Shown here piece after piece: positions 24,015 through 25,983 of a DNA stretch of 64,000 nt. The stretch's first letter is position 1; the number at the start of each line of letters is the position of its first letter. A model generated the notes under the pieces. It saw only the letters and a program-made list of their open reading frames with translations. It was not told where the DNA came from and made no database searches. Made by a program: the position numbers and the translations under genes. Source of the stretch: Flavivirga algicola (GTDB lineage Bacteria > Bacteroidota > Bacteroidia > Flavobacteriales > Flavobacteriaceae); NCBI RefSeq assembly GCF_012910715.1, contig NZ_JABBHF010000017.1:22691-86690 (forward strand), given 5' to 3'.

Positions 24015-24116
24015 AATAAGAGAGCCCACGCGTTGTATATGCTGTTCACATTTAGTGAGTGTCATTTTCAACCTCACCTTACGGGTGTACAAGCACCCTC
24101 GTAACCAAATTGGTTA
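24015..24116 (-). ncRNA. Candidate guide RNA 1, at the 3' end of dCas12f
   Basis: Read on the minus strand from the dCas12f stop codon: a small hairpin over the stop (AACCA/TGGTT), a strong hairpin at 24104-24079 (TTAC, bulge GA, GGGTG, loop, CACCC, GTAA), a second hairpin with arms GTGAG/CTCAC, and an end ACAGCATATACAAC whose CAAC can pair with an upstream GTTG. A presumed guide starts at 24031: GCGTGGGCTCTCTTATT. TnpB/Cas12f guide RNAs commonly overlap or follow the protein gene and carry the guide at the 3' end. The GGGTGCTTGTACACCC hairpin resembles a loop remembered from Cas12f tracrRNAs and one in candidate RNA 2. No expression evidence; ends are estimates. Confidence 0.6.
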
Positions 24117-25211
24117 ATCTATAATAATTTCAATGCCAGCTTTCTTGGCTTTATATTTTATTTTGATCATTAACTCATAATAACTCCAGTTTCTTAATAC
24201 AAACTCCTCCTGTTTAGCTATCCCAATCTTGTCTTCCTGATTTAATAGAATTAGTGTTCCAGCCTGATGTTTAATGCAAAAATCGATTAACCTTCTGCTG
24301 TATACATGAATACGATGGGATACATAATTACTTTCGGCTTTGCGAAGCCTGTCCACTGCTTTTAATTTTCTTTTAACTCCTTTGCCCGACTTGGAATAAG
24401 TAGCCCCAACTTGTGCCCTTTTTAGGGCTGCTTGTATAGCCAACCTTCTATAGAGAAATTCTTCCCTAGTTCCTATAGAAAGTCTGGCTTTACTAGTTTT
24501 CACGACTAAGGGGTATTCTAAAGACAGGGATGCCTCCGCAATCACCTCCGGTTTTAGGAAATGCTTTTCTTTTTCAATTTCAAAAACCGGTAGCCAGAAG
24601 ATTTTACCATCTTTCAATTTAATATGAGAAGTGCAAAGTTTGATTTCTCCTTTTATTACGCGCTCCAATAACGCTCTTTTGTCTGTATAATCCTTTCCTA
24701 AATACGTCTTAAAAGGAACTTGAAATAAACGAAAGCAAAAAGCCTTTTTCTCGTCATTATATGATAATCTGCTTATGCCTTCCAAACCAAAAGGAAAAGC
24801 CATATCCCTCCTAAAGTTTTTAAGGGAACGTTCACCTTTCCAGTATTCAGGACGATTTTGATTAAAAGAAGCGATTAAAGTTTTGTTCAGGTTGGATAAT
24901 ATGTTCGTGGGGATTTCACCTTTAAAGCGATTTGATATTACACGATAGGTTGTATTCATTCGGGAGCGTTGCAAGATTCCGTACTCATCTTTTTTTTCAT
25001 CAGCCAATTTATACTTTATCTCCTCTGACAAATAAAAAAAATCCTTGATCATCTCCTGTACATACAAATGAGAAACAATAAGGTTGGCGGCTCTAAAGCA
25101 TCTGTTTTGCCACTGATAAAGTTTGTCCAAGGCTTCCTTGCGTTCTTCTTGGGTAGGAAGGTCGACCAATATCTGAACCTTTCGGGTTAGTTTGAGTGTA
25201 GGCTTTTCCAT
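24114..25211 (-). CDS. Nuclease-dead Cas12f/TnpB-like RNA-guided DNA-binding protein (dCas12f)
   Basis: 365-residue homologue of TnpB/Cas12f. Family marks: LYQWQNRCFRAANLIVSHLY at residues 31-50, GTREEFLYRRLAIQAALKRAQ at 247-267, GKGVKRKLKAVDRLRKAESN at 277-294, and RNWSYYELMIKIKYKAKKAGI at 340-360. All three RuvC acid positions are lost: RuvC-I reads SLSLEYPLVV, with Ser228 where Asp is expected; RuvC-II reads AGTLILLNQ, with Leu323 where Glu is expected; the protein stops at GIEIIID, before the zinc finger and RuvC-III. It therefore should bind but not cut. It is translationally coupled to the sigma factor (TGA, one base, ATG). Inferred job: guide-RNA-directed delivery of the sigma factor to promoters. 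No TnpA or IS ends nearby. Confidence 0.85.
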   Translation of the reverse strand: MEKPTLKLTRKVQILVDLPTQEERKEALDKLYQWQNRCFRAANLIVSHLYVQEMIKDFFYLSEEIKYKLADEKKDEYGILQRSRMNTTYRVISNRFKGEIPTNILSNLNKTLIASFNQNRPEYWKGERSLKNFRRDMAFPFGLEGISRLSYNDEKKAFCFRLFQVPFKTYLGKDYTDKRALLERVIKGEIKLCTSHIKLKDGKIFWLPVFEIEKEKHFLKPEVIAEASLSLEYPLVVKTSKARLSIGTREEFLYRRLAIQAALKRAQVGATYSKSGKGVKRKLKAVDRLRKAESNYVSHRIHVYSRRLIDFCIKHQAGTLILLNQEDKIGIAKQEEFVLRNWSYYELMIKIKYKAKKAGIEIIID

Positions 25212-25212
25212 A

Positions 25213-25983
25213 TCAAGCGGATTCTAATTGTTGCATGAGTTTATACGCTATCATAAATTCATTGTGAACTTTCTTTTTGGATAAATTAAGCTCTGTAGCA
25301 ATGGACGTAAAGGAATATTTCTTTTCACATCGGAGCTTTAATACTCTTGCTTGTTCCTTGGTCATAACACCTTGAACCTTAATTTCAACAGTGGGCTTTT
25401 GTTCAATTTCAAGCGAACTTCCTTGATTAATAATCGTTTTAATATCCTCAATAGCTTGTTTCACTTCGTTACTAGTTTCATTAATACTTGTTCCCATAAC
25501 CTCAGCAATAGCCTTATATTGAAACTCATATTTTAAACAGAGATCAATCAAATGCCTTCTTTCAGCGTTCAATAGAGGTAATACGTTTTTGATTCGGTTG
25601 AAGTTTTTTTGTTCCGATTCATGGTCTTTCAGATTTTCAAATGCATTTACGGGATCATACCCCACCATATAGTCTTGGTAATTGTCGTAATTCTCTAACG
25701 AATGGACATTCCTAAAGAACTTATTTTTAGGTTTACTATAGTATGAAATGCATTCTCTTTTCATCACAAACCTTAAGAAATAGAAAATATGTTTAGGAGA
25801 TTCTATTCGGTCCCTATGAACCCATAATTTTAAAAAAGTATCTTGAACCAAGGATTCTATAGCAAAATGATCATTAATCATTTGCTTACCGACCCAAAAG
25901 ATACTTCTGTTGTATTGAGCATGAATTTGTTCTAAAGCAGAGGGATCTCCTTTTTTTAATAATTTAAAATTACTATGTGGCAT
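25213..25983 (-). CDS. ECF-type sigma factor partner of dCas12f, with an extra C-terminal HTH
   Basis: 256 residues. Region 2 spans about residues 10-83, with AIESLVQDTFLKLWVHRDRI and HIFYFLRFVMKRECISYY as the core-RNAP and -10 helices. Region 4 lies at about 130-185 (LLNAERRHLIDLCLKYEF, YKAIAEVMGTSINETSNEV). A linker leads to a second region-4-like helix-turn-helix at 207-252 (MTKEQARVLKLRCEKKYSF, TSIATELNLSKKKVHNEF). Ordinary ECF factors end after one region 4 at about 170-200 residues, so the tail is unusual. First gene of a two-gene operon with dCas12f. No anti-sigma factor gene adjoins it, which argues against classic surface signalling. Confidence 0.85.
   Translation of the reverse strand: MPHSNFKLLKKGDPSALEQIHAQYNRSIFWVGKQMINDHFAIESLVQDTFLKLWVHRDRIESPKHIFYFLRFVMKRECISYYSKPKNKFFRNVHSLENYDNYQDYMVGYDPVNAFENLKDHESEQKNFNRIKNVLPLLNAERRHLIDLCLKYEFQYKAIAEVMGTSINETSNEVKQAIEDIKTIINQGSSLEIEQKPTVEIKVQGVMTKEQARVLKLRCEKKYSFTSIATELNLSKKKVHNEFMIAYKLMQQLESA

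Follow-up and report, generated by a model that had tools for sequence, protein, structure and literature searches.

The 64,000-nt stretch of the Flavivirga algicola genome analyzed here (contig NZ_JABBHF010000017.1, positions 22,691 to 86,690; hereafter the window) encodes an extracytoplasmic function (ECF)-type sigma factor, a nuclease-dead Cas12f homologue (dCas12f) and a predicted guide RNA. These three components probably act together to start transcription at a structured leader upstream of the operon itself and at four further leader sites elsewhere in the genome. All of them lie on the minus strand. The sigma gene (25213..25983, 256 aa) is separated by one base from the ATG of the dCas12f gene (24114..25211, 365 aa), and just beyond the dCas12f stop codon lies a 73-nt guide-RNA scaffold predicted from conservation (24032..24104). 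Directly after the scaffold end, ATACAAC, comes the guide GCGTGGGCTCTCTTATT (24015..24031; 3′ end undefined). The leader, of ~148 nt, spans 26130..26277 and contains a target for this guide. The first-pass annotation, which took 24114..25983 as the unit of interest, had placed both genes and their operon spacing correctly and had proposed a dCas12f–sigma family member on a mobile island, a proposal that our analysis bears out; two further parts fell outside that unit, the guide-RNA gene (24015-24104) and the leader that the guide targets (26130-26277), and the targets and the likely self-activation were likewise missed.

We searched the 5.02-Mb genome with the 17-nt guide, allowing up to three mismatches and using the reversed pattern as a control. 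The guide has 11 matches at this level and the reversed pattern has 2; in the window, two matches (one of them the guide itself) compare with 0.08 expected by shuffling. Six matches have two mismatches or fewer: the guide itself, and one site each on contigs C9 (the window target, 1 mismatch), C3 (0), C2 (1), C1 (2) and C6 (2). Exact matches are confined to the guide locus and C3:1331. All five target sites are preceded by a 5′-G, which we take to be the motif that dCas12f–sigmaE systems use beside their targets, and an exact GGTATACCAGTACC lies 7 nt downstream of all five and nowhere else in the genome. The window target (26179..26195, minus strand, with its 5′-G at 26196) is located in the leader, 213 nt upstream of the sigma ATG and on the same strand. 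The sites on C1, C2, C3 and C6 lie upstream of open reading frames (ORFs) of ~110 aa that are 40-67% identical to each other, and on C1 and C2 this ORF is followed by a second ECF sigma gene (the two 68% identical to each other). The ~110-aa ORF matches no Pfam family, and its relatives are named hypothetical proteins of Flavivirga.

A link between guide and leader is also seen among relatives. In the GTDB collection, 123 stretches encode a dCas12f relative; our locus counts cover 81 loci, namely the window and the best 80 of these 123. The leader lies upstream of sigma in 53 of the 81 loci, and our leader model, R1, adds a weak 54th (L026). In 40 of the 53 leader-bearing loci, including the window, the guide lies within two mismatches of its own leader over 10 nt, as compared to 0 of 1060 shuffled controls, and the base before the leader target is G in 52 of 53. 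Guides of the GCGTGGGCTCTCTTATT type, within two mismatches, are found at 63 of the 81 loci, a likeness across genera expected if guides address a conserved leader and not one gene. We also sampled 299 genomes of the family at a dCas12f threshold of E 1e-8. Thirteen matched, two of them (G021 and G266) as fragments only, and 11 of these 13 showed by eye both a leader and a guide within about two mismatches of GCGTGGGCTC, the exceptions being G100 and G021. Of the 13 dCas12f genomes, 10 have leader copies away from dCas12f, as compared to 43 of the 286 others (Fisher p 3e-6); with only full-length dCas12f counted, the figures are 8 of 11 and 45 of 288 (p 7e-5). These p-values overstate the association because the genomes are related.

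The guide RNA itself is conserved. Just after the dCas12f stop codon, relatives share the elements GAGGGTGCTTGTACACCCGTAAGGTGAGG..CACTCACTAAATGC..GCATATACAAC, and in an alignment of 53 scaffold units three helices find support, although covariation is modest (5 of 16 pairs). This alignment excludes near-identical sequences and 5 of the 58 listed units, in the main those of greatest length or divergence. The resulting model, R2, scores 95 bits in the window, matches all of the best 80 relatives, and finds a single guide unit in the F. algicola genome. Among the 299 family genomes, R2 finds a guide RNA in 13, corresponding to 13/13 genomes with a dCas12f match and 0/286 others; it finds one in 5 of 395 sampled genomes of the class Bacteroidia. 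We considered the repeats at 26179 and 26880 as further guide RNAs and, because the genome holds only one guide unit, reread them as leader (target) copies.

More than one guide unit occurs in 20 of the 81 loci (108 of 110 units used, with second copies in L032 and L052 dropped). Tandem units with differing guides are seen in L041, L049, L051, L058, L065, L072 and L097. In L065 and L072, duplicated dCas12f 3′ ends lie between the tandem units, which suggests that guide units are gained by local duplication. L035 carries a further unit between sigma and dCas12f. A second guide type (GCCTTCCC-like) appears as guide 1 of L058 and in the guides of G100; 10 nucleotides of the L058 guide recur exactly upstream of the sigma gene at that locus, and this second type possibly points to a second leader family.

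The two proteins closely resemble a pair of known structure. The window sigma factor matches NCBIfam sigma70-ECF (E 2.7e-20) as well as Pfam Sigma70_r2 and r4, in agreement with its earlier assignment, and matches chain C of PDB entry 9n9q, named ‘RpoE’, at E 1e-111. The dCas12f protein matches PDB chains named ‘Nuclease-deactivated Cas12f’ (9n9c, 9n9m, 9n9o and 9n9q) at E 3e-200, and is far more distant from the active Cas12f 9nzr (E 3e-40). It also matches NCBIfam guided_TnpB at E 4e-14, below the cut-off (52.7 of 100 bits), and Pfam OrfB_IS605 at E 0.07 only.

The losses of catalytic residues proposed at first pass hold in all the full-length sequences compared. In 80 full-length sequences (the 80 relatives and the window, less L056, whose row translated to 62 aa only and was set aside), the position of the RuvC-I Asp (Ser228 in the window) holds Ser in 77 sequences, Thr in 2 and Ala in 1. 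The position of the RuvC-II Glu (Leu323) is L in 32, K in 28, V in 8, M in 5, I in 5, R in 1 and T in 1, and never Glu. Both positions are non-acidic in 80/80 rows. A gap beside 323 in the alignment to active Cas12f leaves the RuvC-II column uncertain to within about one residue; no row has Glu anywhere in positions 320-325. The C-terminus is also missing: the match to the 508-aa 9nzr stops at its residue 416, and the ~90 residues beyond it presumably make up the zinc finger and RuvC-III. The predicted dCas12f structure was moderate only (predicted local distance difference test score 65.5, predicted template modeling score 0.42), so the RuvC argument rests on sequence alignment.

A homologous sigma gene lies upstream of dCas12f in all 80 of the best 80 relatives. 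The two genes lie within about 20 nt of each other in 78 of these, and are ~160 nt apart in L035 and ~470 nt apart in L052; a contig end truncates L019, and in L050 the frame of the sigma gene is split. The linkage of sigma and dCas12f is far beyond chance.

We next turn to the leader. It scores 145.9 bits with R1 (E 1e-31); R1 was built from 40 sequences, the window leader among them. Upstream of it lies a Bacteroidetes-type promoter-like sequence, TTTG-N22-TAATTTTG (26299..26332, minus strand). The Bacteroidetes −7 box, TAnnTTTG, is present upstream of 36 of the 40 leaders as compared to 4.2 expected, and the leader element is therefore probably transcribed. We drew a fold of 38 pairs by hand on an alignment from which near-identical sequences were removed and L091 was left out, and compared it with 500 shuffles and with a control in which pairing partners were slid. 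In this fold 94.1% of cells are paired and two-sided changes occur at 18 pairs (156 cells); none of the 500 shuffles reaches its values for paired cells, two-sided changes or covariation score, and pairing falls to 31-40% when the partner is slid by 1-3 columns. Among 60 distinct leaders that include other families of the class, two-sided changes are seen at 27 of 37 pairs, in an alignment fitted to the model.

The lowest-energy RNA fold computed for the window leader is a terminator form (−54.6 kcal/mol, z −4.6), whose 3′ arm (26130..26150, minus strand) is followed by a T-run (26129-26125). The strand that contains the guide target can pair either with a 5′ arm, giving the covarying fold, or with the 3′ arm AATAAG..CCACGCC, giving the terminator. 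Each of seven terminator arm pairs is formed in 39-40 of the 40 leaders, and terminator arms pair at −21.9 kcal/mol with their own partners vs −20.6 when swapped (standard deviation 0.2). We rejected a view of the leader as a terminator only, since covariation is much stronger in the alternative fold. By its predicted folds, the leader is a candidate terminator-type cis-regulatory element with an alternative fold. A possible degenerate second copy that ends in a T-run lies at 26832..26977 on the minus strand (R1 E 0.75, not significant alone), and shares with the intact leader a 36-nt repeat that is 81% identical.

Using R1 at thresholds of E 0.01 for the family and E 0.001 for the class, we found the leader in 56 of the 299 family genomes (103 hits) and in 62 of the 395 sampled Bacteroidia genomes. 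For 40 of these hits, selected largely by score and all away from dCas12f, we inspected the neighborhoods; the leader could be located by a motif search in 39. The gene that follows is a susC-type TonB-dependent receptor gene in 27, a ~110-aa ORF in 7 (all from two genomes of the same genus, G019 and G248), a sigma gene in 1 and another gene in 4. In 18 class-level loci (L232-L249) the downstream genes are more mixed, and include susC, ECF sigma and others. Rfam scans of the window and of these 18 loci gave no match to the leader. The leader is a structured RNA candidate of its own standing, found in the family sample mostly before susC-type receptor genes, and is open to specialist study.

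A small divergent ORF lies upstream of 36 of the 39 family leaders, a count that has no chance control, and such an ORF is often seen at class-level loci of other families as well. In the window it is a 147-aa XRE-type helix-turn-helix (HTH) protein (26412..26855, plus strand; Pfam HTH_3 above cut-off). Of five fragments of the other divergent ORFs scanned with Pfam, one matched an HTH family above cut-off, two did so weakly and two had no HTH match; the HTH label is therefore safe only for the window gene and one fragment.

From the genes, the sequence and conservation of the guide RNA, the matches, the leader covariation and the co-occurrence, all of which we see directly, we infer binding, initiation, a start site, activation and terminator bypass as follows. 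dCas12f with its guide would open leader DNA behind the 5′-G, and the co-encoded sigma factor would recruit RNA polymerase, with transcription starting downstream of the R-loop. RNA that begins at the leader’s own promoter would end at the terminator or be held back by the alternative fold of the leader. The computed terminator has the guide target as its 5′ arm; RNA started beyond the R-loop would lack that arm and would therefore escape termination, whatever the exact start distance. The complex, bound ~100 nt downstream of the leader’s own promoter, could also block that promoter. In this manner the operon would activate itself and, in trans, the four other leaders, two of which lead to further sigma factors. 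The trans targets would be the small ~110-aa ORFs in F. algicola, and often susC genes in relatives.

Several observations weigh against this model. In the F. algicola genome, a susC gene follows none of the five target sites. In 13 of the 53 leader-bearing loci, including the solved Flagellimonas taeanensis system, the guide fails to match the leader of its locus, and self-targeting is thus not a general rule. The leader is missing upstream of sigma in 28 of the 81 loci (one, L019, being at a contig end); 22 of these 28 still carry a guide of the same type, and would act in trans only. The leader is found in many genomes that have neither dCas12f nor guide RNA, and must for that reason have a function of its own. 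The leader evidence also has weaker parts: one of five covariation measures (further pair types) is reached by 5 of the 500 shuffles; both promoter boxes, −33 and −7, are found in 21 of the 40 leaders only; and at least four T’s directly follow the terminator arm in 30 of 40 only. Finally, the three columns shared by both folds co-vary three ways (GCG in 36 leaders, GTG in 2 and ATA in 2), a pattern that depends on two sequences. For the F. taeanensis guide, a 3-mismatch site lies behind a G, 261 nt upstream of susC, in another hairpin; as a guide target this hairpin is suggestive only, since the search returned 9 hits, the guide itself included, vs 12 in controls.

Other arrangements of the same components can be envisioned. 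dCas12f and its guide might mainly repress, blocking elongation ~100 nt past the leader promoter while sigma serves otherwise. Most leaders do have a promoter-like sequence upstream of the target, and the nuclease-dead TnpB relatives termed TldR are RNA-guided repressors (PMC13418256). This arrangement nonetheless appears unlikely, given that a sigma gene accompanies dCas12f in 80/80 of the best relatives and that the sigma product shares the solved entry 9n9q with dCas12f. We consider it quite improbable that the guide RNA instead acts on leader RNA, altering termination by pairing with the terminator 3′ arm or the hairpin 5′ arm. The guide is complementary to both partner arms because it copies the leader’s switching strand. 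Cas12f-type proteins act on DNA, however, and entry 9n9m is titled as a complex of dCas12f, guide RNA (gRNA) and DNA with a partial R-loop; moreover, 52 of 53 leaders have a G directly before the target, as a DNA-level motif would require, although this G also falls within the terminator arm. That the sequence after the scaffold is no guide but a fixed RNA 3′ end, terminator-arm-like by descent from the leader, would fit the T-run at its end in many relatives (GGCGTGGGCTCTTTTTTT), but is very unlikely in view of the 18 of 81 loci without a sequence of this type (a few, such as L047 and L074, share its first bases), the tandem units that differ from each other (in the 20 loci with more than one), a scaffold in which no 5′ partner arm is seen, and the F. 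taeanensis sequence with its suggestive 3-mismatch site behind a G before susC.

If RNA-guided initiation at the leaders is correct, the RNA-guided sigma factor would turn from a protein pair into a testable circuit, with guide, targets, strand, 5′-G motif and expected start region named per base; self-activation is a prediction, and terminator bypass by initiation inside the terminator is cleanly testable. More tentatively, and in our view possible rather than probable, the leader may be a new RNA switch spread across Bacteroidia, placed before susC and sigma-factor genes, to which dCas12f–sigma serves as a second, RNA-guided key. Since the guide copies the switching strand, one short guide would then address every leader-marked operon at once. 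Transcription would be restarted inside a terminator, and the system’s own operon would form a self-igniting loop carried between hosts on a tRNA island. An IS110 element may share the same DNA address.

Leader copies in the F. algicola genome carry an IS110-family element at the same spot, in the loop of the leader hairpin, which leaves the 5′-G and the guide target intact. Left halves of the element lie at contig ends in L123 (C23), L124 (C11) and L125 (C13), and right halves in L109 (C3), L110 (C6) and L111 (C2); because there are three of each, three of the five leader copies are probably interrupted. IS110 insertion thus seems to favor the leader hairpin.

The system lies on a mobile island of ~16.3 kb. 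A tyrosine integrase gene (22629..23900, plus strand; Pfam Phage_integrase and Phage_int_SAM_5) adjoins a tRNA-Pro gene (22340..22415, plus strand; ARAGORN and Rfam), and the last 17 nt of the tRNA (22399-22415), the left end repeat, recur exactly at 38667..38683 on the plus strand as the right end repeat. G+C content is 27-31% from 26 to 38 kb and 35% over the sigma–dCas12f genes. Island cargo at 27568-38389 includes defense-like genes, with a DUF2971 protein (PDC-S31-like), a SMEK-domain protein, a DUF2326 protein (PDC-M68B-like) and several unknowns; the SMEK-domain and DUF2326 proteins match PADLOC candidate models. A second island-like locus (L112, C1:233000-250000) combines a tRNA-Pro gene, a sister tyrosine integrase, a leader, the 110-aa ORF and an ECF sigma gene. 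Just outside the right end repeat, a truncated second integrase (38909-39607) and, from 39760, a gene that looks conjugation-related by eye are probably the remains of another mobile element. Rfam matches near 23900 (E 0.003-0.16) fall below gathering scores and are microRNA families placed on the hairpin after the integrase gene; we discarded them.

dCas12f–sigmaE pairs are reportedly published as RNA-guided transcription systems, as the first-pass annotation also states. Our literature searches on dCas12f/TnpB/sigma and on the leader returned no paper on dCas12f–sigma pairs or on the leader, and for that reason a function in RNA-guided transcription is taken from PDB titles and this background. 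These titles are ‘dCas12f-gRNA complex’ for 9n9c and ‘dCas12f-gRNA-DNA complex (partial R-Loop)’ for 9n9m. The leader, its class-wide spread and its role as a guide address, including self-targeting, appear new in the literature searched; the original authors may know parts of this.

On every feature that can be judged from sequence, the window’s protein pair and guide RNA belong to the known dCas12f–sigma kind: a dCas12f of the solved type, loss of the RuvC residues, a conserved co-operonic sigma gene, a predicted guide RNA, and a target with 5′-G upstream of a gene. The solved proteins 9n9c_A and 9n9q_C are identical to those of locus L030, from Flagellimonas (Allomuricauda) taeanensis, over about 102 residues compared in each. 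The F. taeanensis pair (9n9c, 9n9m, 9n9o and 9n9q) has the same two proteins in the same gene order, with a dCas12f 80% identical to that of the window, the same guide-RNA scaffold (91 bits), and the same structured leader upstream of sigma (150 bits). The two systems differ in that the F. taeanensis guide has no match to its own leader, whereas the guide of the window has matches in five leaders, its own and four others. They also differ in the location of the window locus on a tRNA island.

With TldR proteins, the window system shares a RuvC-dead TnpB/Cas12f lineage and a guide encoded beside the gene. TldR proteins repress, and are not known to have a partner sigma factor, whereas the window system co-encodes a conserved sigma gene. 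Type V-F CRISPR-Cas12f resembles the window protein in fold and sequence (9nzr, 8hr5 and 7c7l), but the window protein has lost the catalytic residues; we found no repeat-spacer array of the scaffold, which forms one guide unit in the whole genome, other CRISPR arrays not having been sought. Finally, the window leader shares with riboswitch and attenuator leaders a conserved, covarying fold, a promoter-like sequence upstream and a mutually exclusive terminator fold. Unlike these, it has no Rfam match where scanned, and it would also serve an RNA-guided sigma factor as its DNA address.

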